DNA from: a bacterium | GTDB taxonomy: Bacteria; ARS69 | DNA length: 64,000 nucleotides | Assembly (NCBI GenBank): GCA_025774805.1 | Contig: JALGZR010000012.1 | Location: 39,922-103,921, forward strand | Reading direction: 5' to 3' | Shown here: positions 8,481-55,432 of the stretch, in pieces | How positions within the stretch are numbered: position 1 is the first letter of the stretch | Layout of the letters: each line of letters opens with the position of its first letter | Made by a program: the position numbers and the translations under genes | Notes under the pieces: model-generated | Databases searched by the model: none | Told to the model about the DNA's origin: nothing | What the model saw: the letters and a program-made list of their open reading frames with translations, nothing else

Positions 8481-11400
8481 CGTCGACATCGGCCGTGAGC
8501 CCCGAGCTGTTGTCCCGAGTCCAGGACGCGTTCGCCGCCCTCGAGAGCGGGTCGCCCGCCGATCCGGCCACCGCGACGGTGACCCTGGTCCGAGCGACCC
8601 GCGAGGCGGTGAGGGCCCTGGAGCGGATGACCGCGTCGCTCACGGAGGAGACCGATTCGGACCGAGGCGACGTCCGCGCCCATCGTTCCCTGGTGCACCG
8701 GATTCTCGACGACGCCGGCCACCGGTCGGTCAGCACGGCCTTCGCAGAATCCCCGTTCGCGAAGGAGTGGACGGATCTGCTTCTCGAGGCGGTGCTCGCC
8801 TCCGACTACACGGTCGGGGACCTTTTCTTTTCGCGGGCCCGCGCCCTCGGAGATCGCACGCTGTTCCTGCTGCCCCCCGGTCGGAAGGAGGGTCGGGTCT
8901 CCTGGGTGGAGGCGGAGCGGCGGGTCGTTCGCATCGGGCGGGCGCTCCTCGCCGCCCGCGACCGGGGAGAGGTCGGACCCGAGGCCGGACCGGTCGCGAT
9001 CCTCGGACCGAACTCGCCCGAGCTCGCGCTGTTCGATCTCGCCTGTCTCGTGGTCGGGATCCCGAACGTCCCGGTGCCGGCGAACTCGCCGCCCGACCAG
9101 ATCGAGTTCATTCTCGTTCACGCGAAGGCCACCGCGCTGTTCCTCGGGGACGATGCGGCCGCCCGGGCGGCGGCGGGAGCGATCGCCGCCCGCGGGGACG
9201 CGCTGCGGGTCCACTGGATCGACGGGCGTCGCCCGGAGGCGCTTCCGGTCCGTTCGCTGGAGGAGTTCCTCGCGAAGGGAGACACCGTTCCCGAGGAGCG
9301 GGTGAGGGAGGAGGCCTTCCGAGTCCGCTCCGCCGATCTCGCGACGACGATGTACACGTCGGGAACGACCGGCGTCCCCCGGGGGATCCCGTTCACCCAG
9401 GGGAACCTCGTCACGAAGCGATTCGCGCGCGCCGCGGCCTGGCCCGATCTCGGAACGGGCGACGTCTTTCTCTGTTACCTGCCGCTCTACCACACGTTCG
9501 GTCGCTGGCTGGAGATGCTTGGCTGCGTCTTCTGGGGGGCGGTGTACGCGTTCCTCGAGGACGTCTCGCTCGAGTCCCTTCTCTACTCCTTCCAGCGCGT
9601 ACGTCCGACCGCGTTCATCAGCGTCCCGAAGAAGTGGATTCAGATCGCGGAGTCGGTCGGGCCGGGCGGCGAGGACGCTCTTGACGACGCCGCGTCCCCC
9701 GACGAGCGGGAGATCAGCCGAGAGCTCGTTCGCGTCACGGGAGGGCGGCTGCGGCGAGGTCTCTCCGCGGCGGGCTACCTCCCTCCCTGGATCTTCCGTC
9801 GCTTCCACGGCGCGGACATCGAGCTGCACTCCGGGTTCGGCATGACCGAGGCCACGGGGGGCATCACGATGACGCCGGAAGGGGACTACCGGGACGAATC
9901 GATCGGCGTGGCGCTTCCCGGTATCGAGCTGAAGGTCGCCGAGGACGGCGAGCTCTTCATCCGGGGTCCCTACGTCACCCCCGAGTCGGAGGACGAGCCC
10001 CCGCGGGTGGAGGGGTGGCTCGCGACCGGCGACATCGTTCGATCGGACGCGGAGGGGCACTACCGGATCGTCGATCGGAAGAAAGAGATCTTCAAGAACA
10101 TCCAGGGAGAGACGATCTCCCCGCGACGGATCGAGAGCCTGTTCGCCGATTTCGAGATCGTCGAACGGGTCGTCGTCATCGGAGACGATCGACCCTACTG
10201 CACGGCGCTGATCGTGCCGACCGCCGAGCTGCGGAGCGAGTTCGCGGCCGATGCGAACGCTTTCACGATCGACACGCCGGATCTCCGCGAGCGGTTCGCT
10301 CCCGTCGTGTCCAGCGTGAACGGCTTCCTGGCCCCGTACGAGCGCGTGCTCGACTTCGCCGTGCTCGCGCGGGACCTCGATCCGGATCGCGGCGAGCTCA
10401 CCGCAAAGGGCACCCCGCGCCGCAACGTGTTGGTCGACCGGTTCCGCGACGCGATCGAGCCTCTCTACTCGCGGGAGGCGGTGCAGCGAACGATCGGCGA
10501 GGTCACCGTGCGCGTCCCCCACTGGTTCTTGAGACAGACCGGCATCCCGCCGACCGAGCTGCGGGCGACCCCGGAGGGGCTCGAGGCCGGCTCCTCCGCG
10601 CGGCTGTCGATCCGCCCCGGGACGGGCGAGGGGTGCGTGATCGTGGGGGACCTGGAATACGATCCGGGCGGCGGCGAGGTGCGGCTGGGCGAGATCGTAG
10701 GACGCGCCGAGCTCTGGTTGGGGAACGACATGGTGCGACGCTTCGCGGGACCGGGCATCGACCACTGGTGGCGCCGCGGCCCCCGCCTCGACGTACGCAC
10801 TCGACTGGTGAGCCGGCTCGTCGCCGGGGCAGCTCCGCCCGAGGACCCGAGCCGGAGAACGGAGCTTCCCCCCCGCGAGCCCTCGGGCTCCCCCGTCGAT
10901 CTCGCGAACCTCCACGCGTGGGTCCGGGGACTGTCCTCCCCCGATCCGGACGTTCGAAGGGAGACCGTGGAGGCTCTGCGAAAGGACCTCACGGGGGAGA
11001 ACCCCGAGCGCGACTCCCTGGTCCGTCGCGTGCTCCGTTCCGGACTCTCCGACACCCCCATTCGCCCCCACTGCCTGCGCGCGATCATCCCCGGCCTGGC
11101 GCCGGAAGAGCTGGACCGGGCGATCGAAGAGGGAATCGCCGACCCGACGTTTCTATCGGAGGATGAGATCCGGATCGCGGCCGAGTCTCCCCTGCGCGGG
11201 GATCAGCTCGACTACCTGATGCACCGGATCCGGGACTCCGCTCCCGCCGACGAGGAGAAGCGGTGGCCCGAACGGATGCCGGGGCTGCTCCGCCGGCTGC
11301 GTTTCCTCGTGGAGCTGGCGATTCGACATCGCGCGAATCTCCTACGGGTTCGCTCTCTCCTCGCGGATCTGATCGCCCGATCCCGCGACCCCGGTCGGAC

Positions 11401-13276
11401 CGAGGAGCTGGAGACGCTGTTCTCCCGACTCGAGTGCGGATTCCTGGAGAGACTGCCCGAGACCCAGGTCGCTCCCGGGGTGCCGTGGAGGGGGGCGGTG
11501 TTCTTCCGGGGCGAGGTGGAGGAGAACCACCAGGATCGCATCCTCGACGCGATCTCCCGCACGAAGCTCCTGGCGGAGGCGCTCGCCCTGCTCGGTGCGA
11601 CCCCGCCCCGGAGTCCCCTCCTCCTGTCTTCCCGATCGGTGCGCATCTCGCGGCTCGCTCCGAGCCGCGGTCGTACCGTCTACCTGCTCGCGTGGTCCCC
11701 CGCCGGCCTGGACCGCACCGCTCCCCGCTTCGAGTGCGTCCTGAAGGTGAACGAGAGCCTCGACTGGGAGAAGATCCGGGAGGAGCGGCGTCTTCTCGTA
11801 CGCATGCGGACGGGGGGCACCGGGCGTCCGGTCGTGAAGGCCCAGGGCGGGGCCTACCCCGAGCAGGGTCTCTGGACCGAGGAGTACATTCCGGGGCCGA
11901 CCCTCGATCGACTCGTGGAGGACCTCGTCCGGGAGGAGGACGAACGCACCACCGGCCGCCTACCCGAGCTCTGGCAGTTCCTGGTTTCGTCGTGCGCTTC
12001 CCTCGTGGTCGATGCCTGGAGGCGAACGGGGAGCACGCAGACGCTCGCGAACCCCTCGCCGCGCATGGTCGTGCTTCCTCCCCGCGACTGGCAGGTGGGG
12101 GGACGGCTCGTCTCCGTCGCGAACCGCAAGCGGTGCGAGCGTCTGATCGACGTGCTCGAGTCGGTTCGCCAGGGCATCATCCGCCCGCTGCACGAGCGGT
12201 TCGGATCGGCGGGACTCGAGTCCGAACGGCGGCTTCTTCTCTCCGGCGCCCTCGAGGCGATCGGCGAGGAGGAGGGCCTCGCAATCCTCGAGAGGGAGGC
12301 CCCCCCCGACTCGGCGGCCTCCCGATTCGTCTCGTCCGTCCGCCGGCGCGGGTTCCTTCCGGTCCACATCCGAATCGCCGCGCGCCGTTACCGCCGGTGG
12401 TGCCACCTCAACGCGGACGCCACCCTGCAGGCCCAGGCCGCGACACTCGACCAGGTCGCCGCGGCCTACGGACTCGGCGAGCTCGACGTGGAACGGCCCG
12501 GCTCCCGACTGCAGTTCTACCGCCACACGGTGTTCCGGGGAACGGACGATCGTTTCATGCGGGCGTTCGACGCGATCATCGCCGACACCCTCGCGCGCTC
12601 CGCGACGGGGGACCGCCCTCCCCGAGGCGCGGCGACCTCCGGCCCCCCCGGACGATGGCACCGAGAGCTCGCCGATCTCCGGGAGCGCTTCCCTCTGACC
12701 GATCGACAGGAGTTCTTCCTCGCCCAGACGCTCTACCCCCACGTCGATCCGGAGGGAAAGGCCATGCTCGTGCGCGAGCGGGCCGAGGGTGCAGGACACG
12801 GCACGGGAATGGAGGTCACGTATCAGGACGCGGAGGGTGAGGAGTTCCGCATTCACCCCCCGCGCAATCCGAACGAGGTCGGCGCCCTCTCCCGTGTGTT
12901 CCGCGCCGCCAATTTCCGCCGGGTCCCGTCCGCAGAACAGGACGAGCTGCTCGTGGTGACCCAGGCGCAGGGGCGGGTGATCGGCGGACTCATCTTCCAC
13001 CGCCCGAGCGCGACGTATGCTCACCTCGAGTGGCTCGTGGTGAGCCGGCACCGAAGGGGACGCGGCATCGGGGCCGTGCTGCTGAGGGAGTTCCTCGACC
13101 GCGTCAAGGCGCAGGGGGTCCTGGCCGTCTCCACCGGGTTCTTCCATCGGCAGTTCTTCGCGAGGTTCGATTTCGTGATCGATCCTCGCTATGCGGGTCA
13201 AGTGCGGATCCTCGGCGGAGAGGAGACGGGAGATCCCACCGCGCCCGATTCAGGGGACGTGACGGAAATCCGATAG
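8477..13276 (+). CDS. 1599-residue fusion: acyl-AMP ligase, middle kinase-like region, C-terminal GNAT acetyltransferase
   Basis: N-terminal ANL-superfamily adenylation domain (~100-690): ATP motif YTSGTTGVPRG (Y293), GFGMTEATGG, GWLATGDIV and the hinge/A8 region VDRKKEIFKNIQGE, closest in style to long-chain acyl-CoA synthetases. An alpha-helical linker (~800-1000) resembles HEAT-like helices. At ~1080-1200 a segment resembles the N-lobe of kinase/phosphotransferase folds (CVLKV with K1090, then EEYIPGPTL), but a clear catalytic loop is not recognisable. A GNAT acetyltransferase (~1440-1599) carries the acetyl-CoA loop RRGRGIG (R1526-G1532). The GTG start at 8477 overlaps the upstream stop (GTGA); a GTG at 8495 is an alternative. 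Presumed to activate a fatty acid and acylate or acetylate a target. The order of domains is seen; substrate and target are unknown. Confidence 0.85.
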   Translation: MTSTSAVSPELLSRVQDAFAALESGSPADPATATVTLVRATREAVRALERMTASLTEETDSDRGDVRAHRSLVHRILDDAGHRSVSTAFAESPFAKEWTDLLLEAVLASDYTVGDLFFSRARALGDRTLFLLPPGRKEGRVSWVEAERRVVRIGRALLAARDRGEVGPEAGPVAILGPNSPELALFDLACLVVGIPNVPVPANSPPDQIEFILVHAKATALFLGDDAAARAAAGAIAARGDALRVHWIDGRRPEALPVRSLEEFLAKGDTVPEERVREEAFRVRSADLATTMYTSGTTGVPRGIPFTQGNLVTKRFARAAAWPDLGTGDVFLCYLPLYHTFGRWLEMLGCVFWGAVYAFLEDVSLESLLYSFQRVRPTAFISVPKKWIQIAESVGPGGEDALDDAASPDEREISRELVRVTGGRLRRGLSAAGYLPPWIFRRFHGADIELHSGFGMTEATGGITMTPEGDYRDESIGVALPGIELKVAEDGELFIRGPYVTPESEDEPPRVEGWLATGDIVRSDAEGHYRIVDRKKEIFKNIQGETISPRRIESLFADFEIVERVVVIGDDRPYCTALIVPTAELRSEFAADANAFTIDTPDLRERFAPVVSSVNGFLAPYERVLDFAVLARDLDPDRGELTAKGTPRRNVLVDRFRDAIEPLYSREAVQRTIGEVTVRVPHWFLRQTGIPPTELRATPEGLEAGSSARLSIRPGTGEGCVIVGDLEYDPGGGEVRLGEIVGRAELWLGNDMVRRFAGPGIDHWWRRGPRLDVRTRLVSRLVAGAAPPEDPSRRTELPPREPSGSPVDLANLHAWVRGLSSPDPDVRRETVEALRKDLTGENPERDSLVRRVLRSGLSDTPIRPHCLRAIIPGLAPEELDRAIEEGIADPTFLSEDEIRIAAESPLRGDQLDYLMHRIRDSAPADEEKRWPERMPGLLRRLRFLVELAIRHRANLLRVRSLLADLIARSRDPGRTEELETLFSRLECGFLERLPETQVAPGVPWRGAVFFRGEVEENHQDRILDAISRTKLLAEALALLGATPPRSPLLLSSRSVRISRLAPSRGRTVYLLAWSPAGLDRTAPRFECVLKVNESLDWEKIREERRLLVRMRTGGTGRPVVKAQGGAYPEQGLWTEEYIPGPTLDRLVEDLVREEDERTTGRLPELWQFLVSSCASLVVDAWRRTGSTQTLANPSPRMVVLPPRDWQVGGRLVSVANRKRCERLIDVLESVRQGIIRPLHERFGSAGLESERRLLLSGALEAIGEEEGLAILEREAPPDSAASRFVSSVRRRGFLPVHIRIAARRYRRWCHLNADATLQAQAATLDQVAAAYGLGELDVERPGSRLQFYRHTVFRGTDDRFMRAFDAIIADTLARSATGDRPPRGAATSGPPGRWHRELADLRERFPLTDRQEFFLAQTLYPHVDPEGKAMLVRERAEGAGHGTGMEVTYQDAEGEEFRIHPPRNPNEVGALSRVFRAANFRRVPSAEQDELLVVTQAQGRVIGGLIFHRPSATYAHLEWLVVSRHRRGRGIGAVLLREFLDRVKAQGVLAVSTGFFHRQFFARFDFVIDPRYAGQVRILGGEETGDPTAPDSGDVTEIR

Positions 13277-39805: not shown

Positions 39806-40486
39806 TCAGTCGTTCTCGTCCTCGTCCAACCGCGCGATGCGGGCAAGGCGGCTCGAATCGAGGACCACGATCTGACGACCTCGGCTCTCGAGAAGCCTCT
39901 CGGCGCGGAACTCGGTGAGCTGCCGGATGACGGTCTCGACGGCCGCACCGATCATTTCGGCGATCTCCTCGCGGGAGAGCTTGATGCCGATGAGGGTGCC
40001 GTGGGGGGACGATTCCCCGTGGGTGCGGGCGAGCATCACGAGGAGGCGCGCGGTCCTCTCCCGCACGTCGCCCACGGCCAGCTCGACCCGCTCCGCCTCG
40101 GAAGCCCGAAGCCGCCGGGCGAGCGCCATCGCCACCGCCCGGTAGAGCTCCGGCTGCTCCTGGAGGAATTCCAGGAGCGGTTCGCGTTCGATGAGACAGA
40201 CCACCCCTCCTTGAATCATCTCCGCGGTCGTGGAGTAGAGGTGGTCCTCGCAAAAGAGAGCTTCCAGACCAAGCACGTCCCCGGGATTCGTCAGGCGCAG
40301 GATGCACATCTTCCCGCCGGGGGCGGATCGAAGGACCTTGGCCCTCCCGGAGTCGAAACAGTGGATCCCGACGCTGGGCGTTCCCTCGTAGTGGAGAATC
40401 TGCCCCTTTCGGTAGCGGTGGGCGGTCCGGATGCTCTCGAGTCGATCGAGCGCTTCCCCCTCGAGCTCCCGGAAGAGGCTCGTCAC
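39806..40486 (-). CDS. Crp/Fnr-family transcriptional regulator
   Basis: A 226-residue regulator with an N-terminal cyclic-nucleotide-binding-fold domain (~10-120, FDSGRAKVLRSAPGGKMCILRLTNPGDVLGLEALF) and a C-terminal winged helix (~145-215, LSREEIAEMIGAAVETVIRQLTEFRAERLLE). The phosphate-binding cassette lacks the conserved Arg pair of true cAMP binders, so cAMP is not the likely signal. Four scattered Cys are present, but not the N-terminal cluster of FNR. GTG start at 40486. Convergent with the transglycosylase gene; divergent from an exported protein across a region with a 20-base palindrome. Confidence 0.9.
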   Translation of the reverse strand: MTSLFRELEGEALDRLESIRTAHRYRKGQILHYEGTPSVGIHCFDSGRAKVLRSAPGGKMCILRLTNPGDVLGLEALFCEDHLYSTTAEMIQGGVVCLIEREPLLEFLQEQPELYRAVAMALARRLRASEAERVELAVGDVRERTARLLVMLARTHGESSPHGTLIGIKLSREEIAEMIGAAVETVIRQLTEFRAERLLESRGRQIVVLDSSRLARIARLDEDEND

Positions 40487-45588: not shown

Positions 45589-46332
45589 ATGGTCCGACGG
45601 TCCGTGAAGGGAGTCCCCCGCATCGAGTCCTTCGATCTCGAGCCGGGACGCATCCTGGCCGGAAAGTACGAGATCGTCGACAAGCTGGGAGAGGGGTGGG
45701 AAGGGGAAGTCTACCGGATCCGCGAAACGGTGACCGGGATTCCGCGCGCGGCCAAGTGCTTCTTCCCGCACCGCAATCCGAACGACCGGGCCGCGCGGTT
45801 CTACGCGCGCAAGCTCCACAAGCTGCGGCACTGTCCGATCGTGATCCAGTACCACGGGCGGGAGACGTTCATCTCCCGCCGGCAGCGGATCACCGTGCTC
45901 ATCTCCGAGTTCGTGGAGGGGGAGCTCCTCTCCGACTTCCTCCGCCGGCAGCCGTCGCGCCGGCTCTCCCCCTTCGCGGCGATGCACCTGCTCCACGCCC
46001 TGGCGGTGGGAATCGAGGAGATTCACGGCTTGCGCGAGTACCACGGGGATCTCCACGAGGGGAACGTCATGGTGTGCCGGTTCGGACTCGGCTTCGACCT
46101 CAAACTCCTCGACCTCTACCACTGGGAAACGCCCCGTCCCGAGAACATTCGAGAGGACGTCGTGGACATGATCAAGGTCTTCCACGAGGCGCTGGGCGGG
46201 GCGAAGCGATACGCCTCCCAGCCACCCGAGGTGAAGGAGATCTGCCGGGGATTGAAGCGATCCCTCATCACGGCGCGATTCCGCACCGCGGGCGAGATCC
46301 GGCGACACCTGGAGGGCCTGGAGTGGACGTAG
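45589..46332 (+). CDS. Compact Ser/Thr protein kinase-like protein
   Basis: A 247-residue soluble kinase. Glycine loop LGEGWEGEVY (~33-42), catalytic Lys in RAAKCFF (K56), catalytic loop YHGDLHEGNVMV (D154, N159, with HGD replacing HRD) and a metal-binding DLY in LLDLYHWE replacing DFG (the Asp is kept). It lacks membrane helices or sensor domains. AAGGAG precedes the ATG. The PP2C phosphatase gene overlaps its 3' end by 10 bases, giving a reversible phosphorylation pair. The replacement of HRD and DFG is typical of the RIO/APH-like side of the superfamily, so it could phosphorylate a non-protein substrate. Confidence 0.85.
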   Translation: MVRRSVKGVPRIESFDLEPGRILAGKYEIVDKLGEGWEGEVYRIRETVTGIPRAAKCFFPHRNPNDRAARFYARKLHKLRHCPIVIQYHGRETFISRRQRITVLISEFVEGELLSDFLRRQPSRRLSPFAAMHLLHALAVGIEEIHGLREYHGDLHEGNVMVCRFGLGFDLKLLDLYHWETPRPENIREDVVDMIKVFHEALGGAKRYASQPPEVKEICRGLKRSLITARFRTAGEIRRHLEGLEWT

Positions 46333-47207
46333 GCGAGTCCCGCCTGTTCCTCGGGGCCGACCATGCGGTCCCCGAGGTGATCCCCGTGGCCGGGGGAACG
46401 TGCGTCGCCGTTTCCCGCGCGTCCCCGCGACACCCCGAGGGCACCGGCAACGAGGACGGCGCGATGATCCTGGAGATGGGAGAGGACTCGGGTCTGCTGG
46501 CGGTGGCCGACGGCGTCGGGGGAGGTCCCGCCGGTGCGGAGGCCGCCGCGGTCGCCCTCCGGACGATGGCCGAGACCGTCGGTGCCGCGGTACGGGAGGG
46601 ACACGGTCTACGGGCGCCCGTCATCGACGGCATCGAGCACGCGCAGGCGGCCGTGCTCGCGGTGGGCGGAGGAGCGGCCACGACCCTCGCGGTCGTCGAG
46701 ATCGGCCCCGAGACCATCCGTCCCTACCACGTGGGCGACTCGGAGATCCTGCTGACGGGCCAGCGGGGCCGGGTGAAGCTCCGCACGCTCTCCCACTCCC
46801 CCGTCGCCTACGCCGTCGAGTCCGGCCTGCTCGAGGAACGGGACGCGCTCCACCACGACGACCGTCACCTCGTCACGAACGCGCTCGGCATTCCGGACAT
46901 GAGATTCGACGTCGGCTCTCCGATCCGTCTCGCCCCGCGGGATACGCTTCTCCTCGCGACCGACGGCCTCGTCGACAACCTCTACCCCGACGAGATCGTC
47001 GAGGGGATCCGGATCGGTCCGCTGGAGAGGCGAATGCGCGAGGTCGGGGACCTCGCCCGCCGGAGGATGGAGCGGAGCCGGGAGGATGATTCGGCCGGGC
47101 CGCCCCTGACGAGCAAGCCGGGGAAGCCCGGAAAGCCGGACGACCTCACGATCCTGCTCTTTCGGAGAGGACGCGGGCGGGAGCGGGGACGGCGCAAGGG
47201 GAGCTGA
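46323..47207 (+). CDS. PP2C-family Ser/Thr phosphatase
   Basis: A 294-residue metal-dependent phosphatase. PP2C motifs: NEDGAMILEM (motif 1 region), VADGVGGGPAGAEAAAVAL (metal Asp-Gly), VGDSEILL (motif 8-like), LLATDGLVDNLY and KPDDLTILLFRR (final metal Asp). No membrane segment. The GTG at 46323 overlaps the kinase stop, so they are translationally coupled. The C-terminus is rich in Gly/Lys/Arg (SKPGKPGKP and GRGRERGRRKG), possibly a nucleic-acid or membrane contact. Together with the kinase it forms a switch whose substrate could be the nearby FHA-domain cyclase; that link is inference. Confidence 0.9.
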   Translation: MDVGESRLFLGADHAVPEVIPVAGGTCVAVSRASPRHPEGTGNEDGAMILEMGEDSGLLAVADGVGGGPAGAEAAAVALRTMAETVGAAVREGHGLRAPVIDGIEHAQAAVLAVGGGAATTLAVVEIGPETIRPYHVGDSEILLTGQRGRVKLRTLSHSPVAYAVESGLLEERDALHHDDRHLVTNALGIPDMRFDVGSPIRLAPRDTLLLATDGLVDNLYPDEIVEGIRIGPLERRMREVGDLARRRMERSREDDSAGPPLTSKPGKPGKPDDLTILLFRRGRGRERGRRKGS

Positions 47208-48361: not shown

Positions 48362-48393
48362 GGCCAAGGTGGTGCACGGCCAAGGTGGTGCAA
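48362..48393 (+). repeat. Tandem 16-base duplication at the ribosome-binding region
   Basis: GGCCAAGGTGGTGCAC occurs twice in direct tandem (48362-48377, 48378-48393, the second ending in A). The second copy supplies AAGG 8 bases before ATG 48394; the first is a second ribosome-binding region one unit upstream with an in-frame GTG start. Unit number could vary by slippage and change translation of the operon. Confidence 0.7.
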
Positions 48394-49776
48394 ATGCGAT
48401 CCGGGCAGCCATGGCCGGCGCCCGTCGAGTCCCCTAGCGAGCTCCGACTGGACGACGGAGCGCGCATTGGCGTGATCGGAGGGGGGCCGGCCGGTTCGTT
48501 CTTCAGTTATTTCCTCCTCGACATGGCCGGCCGCGTCGGCCTCGACCTCGAAGTCGACGTGTACGAGCCGCGTGACTACACGCGCCCGGCCCCGTACGGC
48601 TGCAACATGTGCGGCGGCATCGTCTCCGAGTCACTCGTGCAGACCCTCGCCACTGAGGGGATCATTCTGCCGCCCGAGACCATCGAGCGCGGGATCGATT
48701 CCTACGTGCTCCACACGGACGTCGGCAGCGTCCGGATCGGGACCCCCACCCACGAGATGCGGATCGCCGCCGTCTACCGAGGCGCCGGCCCGCGTGACGC
48801 CGCGGAGGGAAGCGCCACCCGCAGCTTCGACGGATACCTCCAGAAGCTCGCAGTCGGGAAGGGCGCGCGTGTGGTGCGCGAGCGCGTGTCGAACGTGGAA
48901 CGGACGAACGGACGGTTCGCCGTCAAAAGGAAGGGGGCCGACCCGGTCTCGTACGACCTCGTGGCCGTGGCCACCGGCATTAACTCCGGCGCCAAGACTC
49001 TCCTCGATGGCCTCGACCTGAGCTACCGTCCGCCGCGCGCGACGAAGACGGTCATCCAGGAGTACCGGCTGGGCGAAGAGGGGGTCCGCCGGACGATCGG
49101 CACCTCGATGCACGTGTTCCTCCTGGACATTCGCCGACTGGAGTTCGCGGCCGTCATTCCCAAGGGCGAGTACGCCACCATCTGTCTTCTTGGAGAGGAC
49201 ATCGACAAGGCCCTGGTAGACGACTTTCTGAGTTCGGCTCCCCTTCGGCGCTGCCTGCCCGTCGCGGAGCAGCCGCCGTGCCACTGCTCGCCGCGGATCG
49301 CGGTGCAAGGAGCGTTCCGTCCGTACGACGATCGCCTCCTTTTCATCGGGGACTGCGGCGTCACGCGCCTGTACAAGGACGGCATCGGCGCCGCTTACCG
49401 GACCGCGAAGGCCGCCGCCAAGACGGTTGTCTTCCACGGCGTTGCCGCTGCGGACTTCGAGAGACATTACTGGCCCGCGTGCTACGCCATCACGAAGGAC
49501 AACACGCTCGGCGGCTGGATCTTCTCGGCGACCCGGCTCGTCCAGAGAATGCGGTTCGCGCGCCGGGCGATCCTTCGCATGGTTGCGCGGGAGCAGCGAG
49601 AGACGGGCATGCCGCGCATGAGCATGATCCTCTGGGATCTCTTCTCGGGAAGCGCTCCGTACCGCGACATCCTGAAGCGCGGCATGCACCCCACCTTCCT
49701 CGCTCGTCTCGCTGGGGACCTGGTCGCAGCGTTGGCAGTACCTCAGGACGTCCATCAGGAGGAGGTTGCTCGATGA
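48394..49776 (+). CDS. FAD-dependent oxidoreductase of the geranylgeranyl-reductase-like family
   Basis: A 460-residue flavoprotein. FAD dinucleotide fold at the N-terminus (ARIGVIGGGPAGSFFSYFLL, ~24-43) and the second FAD motif LLFIGDCGVTRLYKDGIGAAYRTAKAAA (~310-337), the DG pattern of the geranylgeranyl-reductase/GGR group; YGCNMCGGIVSESL carries the Cys pair often seen in this family near the flavin. The family reduces isoprenoid double bonds or hydroxylates substrates. The C-terminal ~100 residues are amphipathic helices that could touch the membrane. First gene of the cyclic-nucleotide operon; its stop overlaps the next start (ATGA). GTG codons at 48385/48388 are alternative starts. Substrate unknown. 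Confidence 0.85.
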   Translation: MRSGQPWPAPVESPSELRLDDGARIGVIGGGPAGSFFSYFLLDMAGRVGLDLEVDVYEPRDYTRPAPYGCNMCGGIVSESLVQTLATEGIILPPETIERGIDSYVLHTDVGSVRIGTPTHEMRIAAVYRGAGPRDAAEGSATRSFDGYLQKLAVGKGARVVRERVSNVERTNGRFAVKRKGADPVSYDLVAVATGINSGAKTLLDGLDLSYRPPRATKTVIQEYRLGEEGVRRTIGTSMHVFLLDIRRLEFAAVIPKGEYATICLLGEDIDKALVDDFLSSAPLRRCLPVAEQPPCHCSPRIAVQGAFRPYDDRLLFIGDCGVTRLYKDGIGAAYRTAKAAAKTVVFHGVAAADFERHYWPACYAITKDNTLGGWIFSATRLVQRMRFARRAILRMVAREQRETGMPRMSMILWDLFSGSAPYRDILKRGMHPTFLARLAGDLVAALAVPQDVHQEEVAR

Positions 49777-50168
49777 AGAGTGGCGCCCTCGGCAGGGTCT
49801 ACCGGGACGGCGAAGTGATCATGCAGCAGGGGGAGGTCGGGGATTGCATGTACGTGGTCCAGGAGGGTCGCGTGGGCATCTATGTCGAGCGGGATGGACG
49901 GGAGGTCCTGCTCCGGGAGCCGGTCGAGGAGGAGATTGTCCTGGGCGAGATGGCGCTGCTCGGCTCCGAGGTTCGTTCCGCCACGGTGAAGGCACACGGA
50001 GAGGCGCGCGTGCTCACCGTCGACAAGAAGGCGTTTCTGCGCCGCGTGCACGAGGACCCGTCGGTCGTCTTCCAGGTCGTTCGCACGCTCTCCCAGAGGG
50101 TCCGCGAGCTGAGCGCCGAGGTCGCCCGCCTGCGCGCGGAGTCCGGGAAGCGGGGCGCGGGATCGTGA
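49773..50168 (+). CDS. Stand-alone cyclic-nucleotide-binding domain protein
   Basis: A 131-residue protein made of one cNMP-binding domain (~5-115) and a short C-terminal coiled coil (SQRVRELSAEVARLRAES). The phosphate-binding cassette LGEMALLGSEVRSATV keeps the Gly-Glu and Arg needed to bind the cyclic phosphate and ribose, unlike the Crp/Fnr protein elsewhere in the window. No DNA-binding domain or effector enzyme is attached, so it must act by protein contact, the operon's flavoprotein being the natural partner. AGGAGGAGG precedes the ATG at 49773. The stop overlaps the cyclase start as GTGA. Confidence 0.93.
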   Translation: MKSGALGRVYRDGEVIMQQGEVGDCMYVVQEGRVGIYVERDGREVLLREPVEEEIVLGEMALLGSEVRSATVKAHGEARVLTVDKKAFLRRVHEDPSVVFQVVRTLSQRVRELSAEVARLRAESGKRGAGS

Positions 50169-51190
50169 GCCCGGACGCGGAAGGCGCACGCCTCCTTTAC
50201 AGGACCCCGGTCGCGAGCGTGGAGGCGGCCCTGGAGCTCGTGCGGGTCGTAAGAGGCGAGGAGACCCACCACTTCCCCTTCCACGATCGGCTGGAGGTCG
50301 GGCGCTACGAGCATGGCCGTGAGCACCGAGTCGGGTGCCTTCTCGTCGAAGATCCCACCGTCTCGTTCCATCACTGCATCCTGAACCGGAGATCGGACGG
50401 GCGCTGCTTCCTGCGCGATATCAGCCGGAACGGGACGCTGGTGGACGGCCGACGTCTCGTGCCGAGCGTCGAAGTCGAGATACAGCCGGGTCAGACGATC
50501 TCCGTGGGCGAAGGAAACGAGTTCCTCTTGCGGGGCGGCCCGGGACTGCCCGGCGATCCGGAGCCGAACGCTCCATTCCGCGGGACTCTCGTCACCCGGG
50601 CCACGACGAACGTGACGCTCCTCGTGGGGGACATCAAGGACTACACGGTACTCGTTCGTGAGGTCCCCTCCGACGTGCTGCAGCCCGCGGTGGTGCGCGT
50701 CTTCGACGCGCTCGAGAAGATCGTGATCAAGCACGGGGGCACGGTGAAGGAGTACCAGGGCGATGCGATCTTTGCGTTCTGGGAGGACCGCGACGACGTG
50801 AACCGGGCGTCCGCGGCCTGTCACGCGGCTCTGGCCCTGAACCGCGAGGCCCGGAGGCTCGCCGAGGAACCCGGCGTGTGGACCGCTCCCGGATTCCCTC
50901 TGCATGTCGACTGGGCCCTGGCTACGGGAACCGTCGTCCTCCGGCGTCTCGGGGAGGACACGGCGACGGGCCTGTCCATGATCGGCGAGGTGGTACCGCT
51001 GGCCTTCCGCCTCGAGAAGTTGGCGAGCGACGACACCGGACCGATCATCGCATGCGCCGCGACACGCGAGCTGGCCGTGGACGGCTTCGTGTTCCGCGAC
51101 CTTGGCCGGGTCGAAGTGAAGGGGTTCGACGTTCCTCCGCGGGCTTTCGCCCTGGAGGGACATGTCACCCCGCGGAAGGGCGGGCCATGA
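50165..51190 (+). CDS. FHA-domain class III adenylate/guanylate cyclase
   Basis: A 341-residue enzyme that makes a cyclic nucleotide. An FHA domain (~30-125; LEVGRYEHG, SFHHCILNRR, DISRNGTLVDG) reads phosphothreonine. The class III catalytic domain (~145-330) has both metal aspartates, in LLVGDIKDYT (D156) and YQGDAIFAFW (D200). In IGEVVPLAFRLEKLA the transition-state Arg is kept but the usual Asn (VNLAAR pattern) reads Pro. Whether ATP or GTP is used cannot be told by eye. GTG start overlaps the upstream stop; its own stop overlaps the phosphodiesterase start. The FHA domain implies control by a Ser/Thr kinase, and one is encoded 3.8 kb upstream. Confidence 0.93.
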   Translation: MSPDAEGARLLYRTPVASVEAALELVRVVRGEETHHFPFHDRLEVGRYEHGREHRVGCLLVEDPTVSFHHCILNRRSDGRCFLRDISRNGTLVDGRRLVPSVEVEIQPGQTISVGEGNEFLLRGGPGLPGDPEPNAPFRGTLVTRATTNVTLLVGDIKDYTVLVREVPSDVLQPAVVRVFDALEKIVIKHGGTVKEYQGDAIFAFWEDRDDVNRASAACHAALALNREARRLAEEPGVWTAPGFPLHVDWALATGTVVLRRLGEDTATGLSMIGEVVPLAFRLEKLASDDTGPIIACAATRELAVDGFVFRDLGRVEVKGFDVPPRAFALEGHVTPRKGGP

Positions 51191-51945
51191 GAGTCCGCAT
51201 ACTGACCCACGTGCCCGGCGACGCGATACAATACCTGACGAGTTATCTCGTCGATGATCGCGTGGCGATTGACGCTGGATGTATCGGCTTGTACGGTGGG
51301 CCGGAGGATCAAGGGCAGATCGACCACGTCTTCCTCTCCCATACGCACGCCGATCACATATTCTCCCTCCCGTTCTTCCTTCAAAACGCCTGCCAGGAGA
51401 ACGGGAGGATCGTGGCCGTCCATGGTCACGAGCACGTCCTCCGAAGCGTCCGGACGGACATGTTCAACGACCGTCTGTGGCCGCAGTACCTGATAGAGGA
51501 AGGCCCGGGGTCTTCCTGCGTGCGGCTCGAGACTCTGGAGCCCGAAACGCCCGTGTCGGTCACGGGGTTGAGTGTCACTCCTGTCCTCGTGGACCACATC
51601 GTCCCCACGTTCGGCTTCATCGTGGAGGACGGGACCTCGGCCGTCGCGTTCGGGTCCGACTCGGGGCCCACCGAGCGGATCTGGGAAATCGCCCGCGGCC
51701 TTGTGAACCTGAAGGGCGTCTTCATGGAGACATCGTTTCCGGACGGAATGCGAGACCTTGCACGGAGCTCGGGTCACATGACACCGCGGATGGTGAGAGA
51801 AGAGGTGACGAAGCTCCCCGAGGGCGTACCCGTGATCGCCGTCCACCTGTGCCCCCGGCACCGGGCCCGCATCGTGGAGGAACTCAATGCGCTCGAGCTG
51901 CCCAACCTGAGCGTCGGGGTGGGAGACCGCGAGTACACGTTCTGA
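51187..51945 (+). CDS. Class II cyclic-nucleotide phosphodiesterase (metallo-beta-lactamase fold)
   Basis: A 252-residue enzyme predicted to hydrolyse 3',5'-cyclic nucleotides. The metallo-beta-lactamase zinc motif is SHTHADHI (H52, H54, D56, H57). The class II PDE pattern of yeast PDE1 and Vibrio CpdP is recognisable further on: VAFGSDSGPTERIW, then GVFMETSFPDGMRDLARSSGHMTP, and the final His in VIAVHLCPRHR. ATGA overlap with the cyclase gene shows translational coupling. Having the degrading enzyme as last gene gives a self-limiting circuit. Other MBL hydrolases are possible, but the SFP...GHMTP signature and the neighbours favour this call. Confidence 0.88.
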   Translation: MRVRILTHVPGDAIQYLTSYLVDDRVAIDAGCIGLYGGPEDQGQIDHVFLSHTHADHIFSLPFFLQNACQENGRIVAVHGHEHVLRSVRTDMFNDRLWPQYLIEEGPGSSCVRLETLEPETPVSVTGLSVTPVLVDHIVPTFGFIVEDGTSAVAFGSDSGPTERIWEIARGLVNLKGVFMETSFPDGMRDLARSSGHMTPRMVREEVTKLPEGVPVIAVHLCPRHRARIVEELNALELPNLSVGVGDREYTF

Positions 51946-52098: not shown

Positions 52099-54906
52099 CT
52101 ATCTGACAACAGCCATCTTTCGTGTCTTGACGAACCTGCTCGTTTCGAGACGATAGAAGTAGACTCCGGTGGCGACCGGGTGACCGTTCTGGTCTCTTCC
52201 GTCCCAGGTAGTCGAGAAAAGCCCTGCCGGAGAAGACTCGTCGACGAGCGTTCGGACAACGCGGCCCGCGACGTCGTAGATCGCCAGCTTCGCGGGTCCT
52301 TCTCGCGGCAGGTTCCACCGGATCATTGTTTCGCGGTGAAACGGATTTGGTGCATTCTGCAAGAGACTCGTGAGGTCTCCCTCACCGAGAATTACCCCGG
52401 TTCCCACAAGAATCCCCGTCGCCTCCGTGTAGTCACTGGCATTGCCATGGACGTCGAACGCGGCCGCGCGGTAATATGCCGAGTCCCCATAGGAGACGTC
52501 GAAGTCTTCGTATGTGGTCTTTGATGTCCGACCGATGTAGTCGAGCGGACTCTCGGGGAGAAACGTCGGACTTGGCCCCTTGTAGATGGCGTAGTCTCGC
52601 AGATCGGCTTCCCCGTTGGGCGCCCAGCTCAGAACGACCCTAAGCGGTGTCCCCCGTAGCCTCTCCTCGCCCGCTTCTTGTCCTGGGCCCGCCGCGATCA
52701 CAGAAGAGGGGGTTCCTTCCTCCGTAGCGCGGAACGACAGAGGTGTGCTTGGGGCCAAGTTGTCACCCGAGTACGCGGTCACAACATTCGAATCCCACCA
52801 AGGCCGCGCCGGGACCGATCGATAGATCTGGAGCGAGTCGGAACCGCTCTCAGGAATCCCGTGAGCCGATACGAAGAATTCATGGATCACGTCCGGCAAC
52901 CCAACTACGTCGGATGAGTCCATCCTCGTGGCCGCGCAAAACGAGTAGCCTTCCGCGGCCCGATGCGCGAGCTGCGTCCCCACAAGTTCCCAGAGGCCCG
53001 CGGGGCCATCAGACCGCACCGTCGGCCGCGCCCCGGTCCGCACAGCCGCTTCGAATTCTTCTACCGTAACCGTAGCGAGGTCAACGGACGCGAATTCACC
53101 GCCGTCGCGCAGACGATCCGTCTCCTGCAGGCGCCTCCAGATTGAGTAGAATGAGATCACATCTGAAGGAAAGTCTCCATCACTCGGGGAATCTGGATCT
53201 GCAGGCAAATCGTCCAGATAGCTTCGAGTCCATGTGAGCTCGACAAATCCGCCCTGATCCCCTGGAACGTCTCCAAGGCTTGAAAGGAAAGGTGCTGCAC
53301 AACCTCGAGCGCCGTGATAGTCCACGCGTTGCGCCATAACGGTTGTCGTGGATCCCAAGCCCGGTCGATCGTCCTCCCAGGCCACCGCGAACGCGAACTT
53401 TGGCTCGCCGGTGGTGGGATCTGAGAGAGCGTCCTCCGACGCGACGAGTGCTACGGCCGGGTGGGCCTGATTGCCTGAGCCTGTCGCGACCTGTGCTCCA
53501 TCGGACGCCCAACACAGTTCACCACGATACCCGCTCAGACGCTGCGCATAGATGTCGGTGCCCGCCCCCCGATGGTCTGCCCAGACGACAACGACACCAT
53601 CCTCGGAGTCGGAGACGATGGCGAGATCGTGGGCGTATGCCGGTTGGCCTTCCGCGAGGTTGACCTGGTCCCAACTGTAGAAAGGTGGGATGACGGTCAG
53701 CGGCAGCACAGCTTCCTCCGGATAGTAGTCATCGATCCGAACGGCACTCACGCCGGACTCGCTGGTCCATGCGACCACGGCGCCTCCCATCGAGTCCGAC
53801 TCGATCACGACCTCGACTCCGCCCCGACTCGAAGGCACCTCGATAAGACTCGGTGTGAACGTGACCTGATCCCACACGGGGCTCCACACGATCTGCGCCC
53901 CCGGACCTTGTTCGATGACTCTCTGCATACAAATGTGCCGTTCGTCGCCCTGCCCACTCGCCCAAGTGGCATAGGCGCCCCCGGTTCCGTCGTGATTGAC
54001 GACTGGTTCTCGCCCAGGTACCAAGTCCCCTCCTGTAGGCGTGTTAGCCTGTTCGGTCACGTCCATCTGCCAGGCCACACCGCCGTCTGCAAGCGAGACC
54101 TTGAAGACCACGACTTCCCGACCGTCGTTTATTTCGAAGACTCCCACTGCCGTCGGGTTCGCGGGGTCGATCGGATCGATGAATCCATCGATATCGACCG
54201 GGTTCTCGCTATCCCAACGGACGCCACCGGCTATGTCGAGCCCCCACGGTCCGAATGCCGCCGTCCCATTCGCGGCGACGTGCTGCACATGGATGAATCC
54301 AATGTTTTGGGGTGGTCTCTTCGTACACACGATCCACGCGCCGCCTTGCTCGTCCGAGGATACCCGCACATCATCGAGAACATCTCCCGTTGCGATGTGG
54401 TCGACGACCATCAGACAGAAGGACGACGTGCCGTCTTCCATCAGGCGACACATCCATACGTCGGCGCCGTCCGTCGACCCGCAGGTCGGGTCGTTCACGA
54501 CGAGCCACGCAACGAAGCAACCGCCTTGACCATCGCTGCACATGACGGGACGTGTCGATATCGATTCACAGACCCATCCAGTCACCGGAGGCTCGAAGGT
54601 CCAAAGGGTGTCACCACTCGAAGCGACGCGACTGATTCGCGTCGTGCAAACAGAACCTGAATGGGTCTCGTACGCGACGTAGAAGCCTCCTTCCAGGTCC
54701 GGTGCGATCGCAGGTCGTCCCGCTGGAATGCCGGCCGCAGGGATCTGGACCCCTTCGTCCGGATCCGCCGGCCAAACCCCCGGACACTGAGCTCGCGCAG
54801 ACGGCGGAGCGAGTAGCATGAGGGACAGAGCAGCTACGGCAAGGGTGGACGTTCTCCTTCTGGGTGCCCGTACTAGGTGATCGGGTGAGAGGGTTGATGC
54901 ACGCAT
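52099..54906 (-). CDS. Large secreted beta-propeller-like protein with C-terminal FlgD-like sorting-type domain
   Basis: A 935-residue exported protein. Signal peptide ~1-40 (LAVAALSLMLLAPPSARAQ). Residues ~45-530 contain repeated units of the form GGAWIVCTKR, GGAYATWASG..RHICMQRV, GGAVVAWTSES and DGVVVVWADHRGAGTDIYAQRLS, typical of surface propeller-like repeats. A fibronectin-type-III-like region (~780-850) precedes the C-terminal domain (~855-935: LLQNAPNPFHRETMIRWNLP, LAIYDVAGRVVRTL, WDGRDQNGHPVATGVYFYRLE, ending KMAVVR). AAAAGGAGG before ATG 54906 fixes the start. Probably displayed at the cell surface or released; ligand unknown. Base composition is somewhat lower in GC than the core genes. 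Confidence 0.82.
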   Translation of the reverse strand: MRASTLSPDHLVRAPRRRTSTLAVAALSLMLLAPPSARAQCPGVWPADPDEGVQIPAAGIPAGRPAIAPDLEGGFYVAYETHSGSVCTTRISRVASSGDTLWTFEPPVTGWVCESISTRPVMCSDGQGGCFVAWLVVNDPTCGSTDGADVWMCRLMEDGTSSFCLMVVDHIATGDVLDDVRVSSDEQGGAWIVCTKRPPQNIGFIHVQHVAANGTAAFGPWGLDIAGGVRWDSENPVDIDGFIDPIDPANPTAVGVFEINDGREVVVFKVSLADGGVAWQMDVTEQANTPTGGDLVPGREPVVNHDGTGGAYATWASGQGDERHICMQRVIEQGPGAQIVWSPVWDQVTFTPSLIEVPSSRGGVEVVIESDSMGGAVVAWTSESGVSAVRIDDYYPEEAVLPLTVIPPFYSWDQVNLAEGQPAYAHDLAIVSDSEDGVVVVWADHRGAGTDIYAQRLSGYRGELCWASDGAQVATGSGNQAHPAVALVASEDALSDPTTGEPKFAFAVAWEDDRPGLGSTTTVMAQRVDYHGARGCAAPFLSSLGDVPGDQGGFVELTWTRSYLDDLPADPDSPSDGDFPSDVISFYSIWRRLQETDRLRDGGEFASVDLATVTVEEFEAAVRTGARPTVRSDGPAGLWELVGTQLAHRAAEGYSFCAATRMDSSDVVGLPDVIHEFFVSAHGIPESGSDSLQIYRSVPARPWWDSNVVTAYSGDNLAPSTPLSFRATEEGTPSSVIAAGPGQEAGEERLRGTPLRVVLSWAPNGEADLRDYAIYKGPSPTFLPESPLDYIGRTSKTTYEDFDVSYGDSAYYRAAAFDVHGNASDYTEATGILVGTGVILGEGDLTSLLQNAPNPFHRETMIRWNLPREGPAKLAIYDVAGRVVRTLVDESSPAGLFSTTWDGRDQNGHPVATGVYFYRLETSRFVKTRKMAVVR

Positions 54907-55432
54907 CGGGAACCTCCTTTTGGGTGAAGCATGCGGTAGGAACGCGGCGGCGTCGCGAGTGTCGCGTCTAACTGACAGATGCCGCGGCTCAGAGATGTGC
55001 TGCACCGTCTCATTCTGCTTCGCCACGGCCGCGTTCCGCAGAAAGGGACATGCAGAGTCCCGGAAACAGGGAGGCCCGCCTATCCCGCAGCCGGTTCCCG
55101 GTGACCTACGCCCGACCCCGATGCCGGGCTCAACCGGTCCCCACCGGCCCGCGATTCAGTTTCCTCAGGTGGCAACAGGCCTGCCGCGCCCGAGGAGGGC
55201 GTGGATCGACCATGGAATCCATGCTGGCCTGGCCCCCATCGTGACGGCGATCGGCGGCGAAACGCCAGTGTGATTCGAAGTGCCGGCCGACGGCGGGATC
55301 GAGTCTGAATTGTCGATCAGGCGACTCCACGTCCCGATCCATTCACCGGCAACCCGGCCAGGGGGGGAGGGTTGCGCATGGAAGGAAAGCTCCTCGCCAC
55401 ACCAACGGCCAAGTCGGAGCGGATCGTTGTGG
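54907..55432. other. Intergenic stretch with no supportable intact gene
   Basis: The first ~20 bases hold the ribosome-binding site of the secreted-protein gene. Beyond this, both strands are open only in short, low-complexity frames. The last ~50 bases (from about 55384) contain a frame reading KLLATPTAKSERIVVDDSG that may belong to the lost 5' part of the following gene remnant in another frame. No repeat of families A or B was found here. Confidence 0.5.

Follow-up and report, generated by a model that had tools for sequence, protein, structure and literature searches.

A stretch of 64,000 nucleotides from contig JALGZR010000012.1 (assembly GCA_025774805.1, bacterial lineage ARS69; hereafter "the window") carries a four-gene operon that probably encodes a cyclic nucleotide-gated flavoenzyme and also its own signal supply, a reading drawn from gene order, domain content and conserved residues. 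The genes specify a flavoprotein (FLAV), a cyclic nucleotide-binding protein (CNB), a cyclase with an FHA domain (CYC) and a metallo-beta-lactamase-fold protein (MBL) of a phosphodiesterase (PDE) type:

48394..49776, + strand: FLAV, flavoprotein with the fold of geranylgeranyl reductases (GGRs) and FixC; ATG start at 48394, in-frame GTG upstream at 48385
49773..50168, + strand: CNB, stand-alone cyclic nucleotide-binding protein of 131 aa; PF00027, E 3e-21
50165..51190, + strand: CYC, FHA domain plus class III cyclase; GTG start
51187..51945, + strand: MBL, atypical class-II phosphodiesterase-type metallo-beta-lactamase-fold protein; PF12706 and PDEase_II PF02112

Each junction is a 4 bp overlap (ATGA at 49773, GTGA at 50165, ATGA at 51187), and AAGGTGG lies ahead of the FLAV ATG at 48394. 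The reading frames and junctions are as given in the original prediction, which was made from these letters alone, and its domain assignments also held: CNB, FHA and MBL by domain searches, and the cyclase by its similarity to CyaB.

The FLAV-CNB pair

The constant part of the system is the pair formed by the first two genes. An initial survey found five genomes with close FLAV homologues (41-53% identity), and wherever the flanks could be read CNB lay downstream of FLAV (4/4). An alignment of the survey FLAVs found 334 relatives in a genome collection, and the best 80 were examined; the window, the five survey loci and these 80 make up 86 loci (labels such as L093 denote single loci). FLAV and CNB adjoin in 81 of them, 72 in the order FLAV-CNB and nine in the order CNB-FLAV, and three of the remaining five (L037, L060 and L125) lie at contig ends or are broken. 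Among unfused FLAV-to-CNB pairs, 27 of 59 have exactly the 4 bp overlap seen in the window. Adjacency at this frequency, together with the recurring overlap, indicates that the two genes are not neighbors by chance. The loci are spread over about a dozen phyla, with labels taken from metagenome-assembled genomes (MAGs), where occasional binning errors are possible: Chloroflexota, Pseudomonadota, Myxococcota, Acidobacteriota, Eiseniibacteriota, Verrucomicrobiota, Gemmatimonadota, Ignavibacteriota, Bacteroidota, Planctomycetota, Actinomycetota, Sumerlaeota, Aminicenantes and Thermodesulfobacteriota. In the window's own small phylum the other four genomes yielded no FLAV, though unrelated bacteria have it; the viral and plasmid collections yielded no FLAV relatives.

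In 13 loci the two proteins are joined in frame as one chain, with CNB at the C-terminus behind a linker some 12 to 40 residues long, and the FLAV tree requires eight fusion/fission changes. (A further candidate fusion, L117, was dropped: its two matches lie in different frames.) Pairwise identities of FLAV and CNB are correlated (r 0.55, 0/1000 permutations), with a median of 53% for both. An AlphaFold2 (AF2) model of one natural fusion, L065:6953-8710 (585 aa), has a predicted local distance difference test score (pLDDT) of 91.4 and a predicted template modeling score (pTM) of 0.91. By our own estimate the pTM would be nearer 0.75-0.8 if the placement of the smaller domain were undefined, so the model makes a defined docking of CNB on FLAV likely. 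The neighborhood is thus not unique to this contig, and the physical link proposed between flavoprotein and CNB protein has behind it both the natural fusions and a confident model of one of them.

CNB had been described as a stand-alone protein with an intact phosphate-binding cassette, and the searches bear this out: it scores 75.6 bits against PF00027 (cut-off 27.5) and retains the cassette residues (GE58-59 ... R68-S-A-T). Across the loci Glu59 is kept in 78/81 CNBs and Arg68 in 74/81. Matches in PDB and NCBIfam include PKG, the PKA regulatory subunit (PKA-R), Bd1971 and Pat. CNB lacks a DNA-binding domain: no helix-turn-helix family was found in its 131 aa, and it does not pass as a CRP/FNR protein.

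Predicted genes for making and removing the nucleotide

The operon was originally seen as self-contained, with a four-gene order to be sought in other genomes. That order does recur, in L093 and L115 (both Eisenbacteria), and FLAV-CNB-cyclase is also present in L061, L067, L070 and L080. Self-containment therefore describes the window and two other loci, whereas the widely conserved unit is FLAV-CNB. The varied placement of cyclase and PDE genes suggests that signal supply is modular; judged from these gene neighborhoods, the genes for synthesis and destruction are exchangeable accessory modules outside a conserved core. About 17 loci have a class III cyclase gene as a same-strand neighbor, in three architectures: FHA-cyclases 3′ of the pair (the seven loci just named, counting the window), FHA-GAF-cyclases beside it (L096 by Pfam; L076, L091, L094 and L111 by similarity to L096) and cyclase-AAA-TPR proteins (L120 and L073). 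L078 and L084, members of a BLAST cluster of supposed cyclases, were removed as non-cyclases by Pfam, and the match in L108 was to an FHA-only protein.

The FHA domain of CYC (PF00498, 2e-12) has GR46-47, S67xxH70 and NG89-90. The catalytic part matches Pseudomonas aeruginosa CyaB (3r5g, 4e-18 by phmmer). Like CyaB and Mycobacterium avium Ma1120 it has the metal-binding Asp pair (VGDIKDYT, 154-161, and KEYQGD, 195-200, aligned to CyaB) and the transition-state Arg (VVPLAFR, 276-282); unlike them it has an N-terminal FHA domain, and Glu-Ser where they have Lys-Asp/Thr. Glu replaces the ATP-selecting Lys (in KEYQGD) and Ser occupies the second position (in LSMIG) in 7/7 FHA-cyclases. Guanylyl cyclases follow this pattern, with Glu for Lys and Cys, Ser, Thr, His, Ala or Gly for Asp (PMC4215837), and by these residues the window cyclase would favor GTP, making cGMP the likelier messenger here. 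The earlier assignment of an FHA domain joined to a class III cyclase is upheld by the domain match and the metal and Arg residues, with the refinement that its substrate residues are guanylyl cyclase-type.

The strongest competing account, which we hold to be quite possible if the less probable choice, accepts the pair as real but makes cAMP the messenger throughout, with the window's FHA-cyclase weak or moonlighting. The FHA-GAF-cyclases beside the pair carry a Lys/Thr/Asn/Arg set, as adenylyl cyclases such as CyaB do; the CNB cassette reads RSATV alike beside FHA-cyclases and FHA-GAF-cyclases, so the ligand cannot be read from CNB; and the window's cyclase subfamily has lost the transition-state Asn. 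This account has to contend with the guanylyl-type Glu-Ser present in all seven FHA-cyclases of this setting and with Ma1120, which also lacks the Asn and is active with Ala in its place (PMC4215837).

MBL scores above the cut-offs of both PF12706 (4e-14) and PF02112 (4e-10), and its motifs are SHTHADH51-57, FNDRLWP93, GSDSG156, ETSFP181 and GHMTP196. The first fits [T/S]HxHxDH, the signature of atypical class-II PDEs (PMC9293780). MBL resembles Rv1339, Corynebacterium glutamicum CpdA and YhfI in this signature and in PF12706, and differs from them in being a dedicated copy beside a CNB enzyme and in having FNDxxWP, as typical class-II enzymes do. The class II phosphodiesterase of the original prediction thus becomes an atypical class-II candidate, presumed to hydrolyze the cyclic nucleotide. 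PDE-type MBL genes occur in six loci: after the pair and cyclase in the window, L093 and L115, and nearby in opposite orientation in L073, L077 and L078. MBL could instead act on another substrate, as an RNase Z/PhnP-like hydrolase, and RNase Z and PhnP models do score equal to the PDE models. We consider this unlikely given the FNDxxWP element and GHxTP region held in common with yeast PDE1, the above-cut-off PF02112 matches in L077 and L078 as well as in the window, and the six copies by FLAV-CNB.

A probable redox enzyme as the output

The AF2 model of the window FLAV (pLDDT 89.6) has as its nearest folds GGR-like Ta0516 of Thermoplasma acidophilum (3oz2, Z 30.4), FixC (7koe_C, Z 28.5) and the Sulfolobus acidocaldarius GGR (SaGGR, 3atq, Z 27.4). 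FLAV shares with GGRs the FAD motifs GxGxxG and (L/F)xGD, and C76 in a conserved CGG is the counterpart of the GGR catalytic Cys47 (FLAV residues are numbered from the GTG at 48385). There are multiple distinguishing features as well: identity to GGRs is 15-16%, FLAV has three extra invariant cysteines and a CNB partner, and it lacks the GGR catalytic motif PxxxWxFP (PMC10821996), with FAAxIPKG at the corresponding place (an equivalence by position in the alignment, not by superposition). The match to the GGR family model TIGR02032 (E 6e-10, 39.2 bits) is far under the 158.8 cut-off. A PDB sequence search with FLAV gave no match, and a FLAV profile found only weak halogenase matches there.

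The extra cysteines form a set of four with C76 (CNMC73-76 and CHC299-301, that is C73, C76, C299 and C301), invariant in 84/84 aligned FLAVs. In a set of 23 remoter homologues that lack CNB, every member retains C76; the other three occur together in 11 and are replaced together in 12, and no member has a mixture. Double-length homologues have the full set in the N-half and the replaced set in the C-half. This all-or-none pattern suggests that the four act together, and argues for a metal or Fe-S site, or disulfides. The CNB-less homologues of L041-L055 include such double-FLAV proteins of about 900 aa, whose C-half is the Y-C-N-Y version, and two additional single-copy members have a GNAT acetyltransferase fused to them.

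A genuine redox role for FLAV is probable: in 24 loci the next gene encodes a GltD-like NAD(P)H flavoprotein that carries 4Fe-4S domains at both its N- and its C-terminus. In L109 CNB is fused to the GltD-like reductase, and a GltD-like copy with 50% identity is encoded away from the operon in the window's genome (C105:23055-24683). FLAV thus resembles FixC of the Fix/EtfABCX system in fold and in association with an Fe-S electron carrier; unlike that system, the annotated FLAV loci contain no recognised electron transfer flavoprotein subunits and have the GltD-like partner instead. An SDR-type NAD(P)-binding protein with DUF2867 (SDR-DUF2867) is encoded near FLAV in 14 loci (L103, L067, L108, L115, L119, L123 and L132 among them), in L119 fused to FLAV, and is a possible clue to the FLAV substrate pathway; the window's genome gave no DUF2867 match. 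Near FLAV-CNB, other CNB domains are fused to a D-2-hydroxyacid dehydrogenase, acetate kinase with PTAC, an MscS-type channel and the GltD-like reductase (L086:4967-6436; L095:8725-10197; L096:5224-6801 and 10412-12730; L066:2170-3660; L109:8329-10473). These fusions suggest broad direct control of enzymes and channels by cyclic nucleoside monophosphates (cNMPs) in these bacteria.

In the proposed mechanism FLAV would be an FAD redox enzyme with a four-cysteine site, probably receiving electrons from the NAD(P)H-dependent GltD-like/4Fe-4S reductase. CNB would sit on it as a docked regulatory subunit, and a 3′,5′-cyclic nucleotide in the cassette would turn FLAV on or off, probably by allostery. 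Ser/Thr phosphorylation could set the cyclase through its FHA domain, the messenger would more likely be cGMP, and MBL would hydrolyze it and reset the switch. That nucleotide-bound CNB switches the redox enzyme, as originally suggested, is supported above all by the natural fusions; the direction of the switch, the substrate, the identity of the nucleotide, the electron donor and the kinase input are features we infer. A fuller version is put forward only tentatively, as rather doubtful in all its parts together: widespread cyclic nucleotide-gated flavo-metalloenzymes in which the four cysteines bind an Fe-S cluster or metal by the flavin and CNB is the allosteric gate, opened in the window's lineage by cGMP that an FHA guanylyl cyclase makes under the control of phosphorylation.

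Several points weigh against a gated flavoenzyme with its own signal supply. First, the cyclase and PDE genes are missing from most loci, where the nucleotide may often be supplied from elsewhere. Second, FLAV in L059 and L119 has no recognisable CNB, and these are genuine exceptions. Third, the sample is the best 80 of the 334 FLAV relatives, all MAGs. Fourth, the confidence in interdomain placement is a whole-chain pTM for a homologue's fusion and not for the window pair. Finally, the window cyclase reaches only 0.0016 and 18.5 bits against Guanylate_cyc PF00211, under the 21.9 cut-off, and none of the seven FHA-cyclases, the window's included, has kept the transition-state Asn.

Information could also flow the other way, with FLAV doing no metabolic work and serving as a redox sensor (through flavin and cysteines) that tunes CNB, itself a cNMP reservoir or a control on the cyclase. 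CNB lacks a DNA-binding domain, the window shows no other output, and four cysteines next to a flavin could form a redox switch. We judge this improbable, since FLAV-CNB is retained in most loci although the cyclase is absent, the GltD-like and SDR-DUF2867 neighbors imply catalysis, and CNB elsewhere in the loci is fused to the dehydrogenase, kinase, reductase and channel listed above. That FLAV is an ordinary geranylgeranyl-type reductase with incidental neighbors, as its closest folds, weak TIGR02032 match and Cys47 position might suggest, is very hard to credit beside FAAxIPKG at the catalytic motif and 81/86 adjacency, and is largely refuted by the 13 fusions.

The best-known actions of cAMP and cGMP in bacteria run through transcription factors. 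A gated flavoenzyme would be closer to PKA and PKG, mycobacterial Pat/KATmt (Rv0998) and the Bdellovibrio EAL enzyme Bd1971, in which a CNB domain, its cassette intact, controls the enzyme that it is joined to or partners. It differs from these in that the output is an FAD redox enzyme, that CNB is a separate subunit or C-terminal fusion, and that cyclase and PDE are sometimes in the same operon. A literature search for CNB with GGR or flavoprotein found nothing relevant, in keeping with the original remark that no characterised system of this composition is known. CNB-gated enzymes are a known kind; one that is a flavoenzyme and has a cyclase and PDE of its own is undescribed as far as searched. 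If the reading is right, direct second-messenger control of electron flow would be common in uncultured bacteria of soil, groundwater and sediment, and the 13 natural fusions are ready single-chain constructs for studying cAMP/cGMP gating. The window operon predicts bacterial cGMP signaling beyond the few known cases and, should the flavo-metalloenzyme version hold, a full cGMP circuit in a bacterium, ending in a redox output.

Surroundings of the operon

A search for promoter-like sites near the operon found none, and terminator-like sites there do not clearly exceed chance. Two overlapping genes lie 1.2-2.8 kb upstream:

45589..46332, + strand: Ser/Thr protein kinase (PF00069, 8e-11)
46323..47207, + strand: PP2C-type phosphatase adjoining the kinase (PF13672, 3.5e-10)

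The kinase may write the phospho-Thr that the FHA domain reads, and the phosphatase may erase it. In L093 a gene for a Ser/Thr protein kinase with TPR (STPK-TPR) follows MBL and, like the window's kinase and phosphatase, may set the FHA domain. An RtcB-like gene precedes the kinase and phosphatase genes. A second CNB domain gene lies at 40157-40420 (- strand), about 8 kb from the operon. At 52099-55026 (- strand), converging on the operon's end, is a gene for a large protein whose C-terminal domain looks FlgD/sorting-like by eye.

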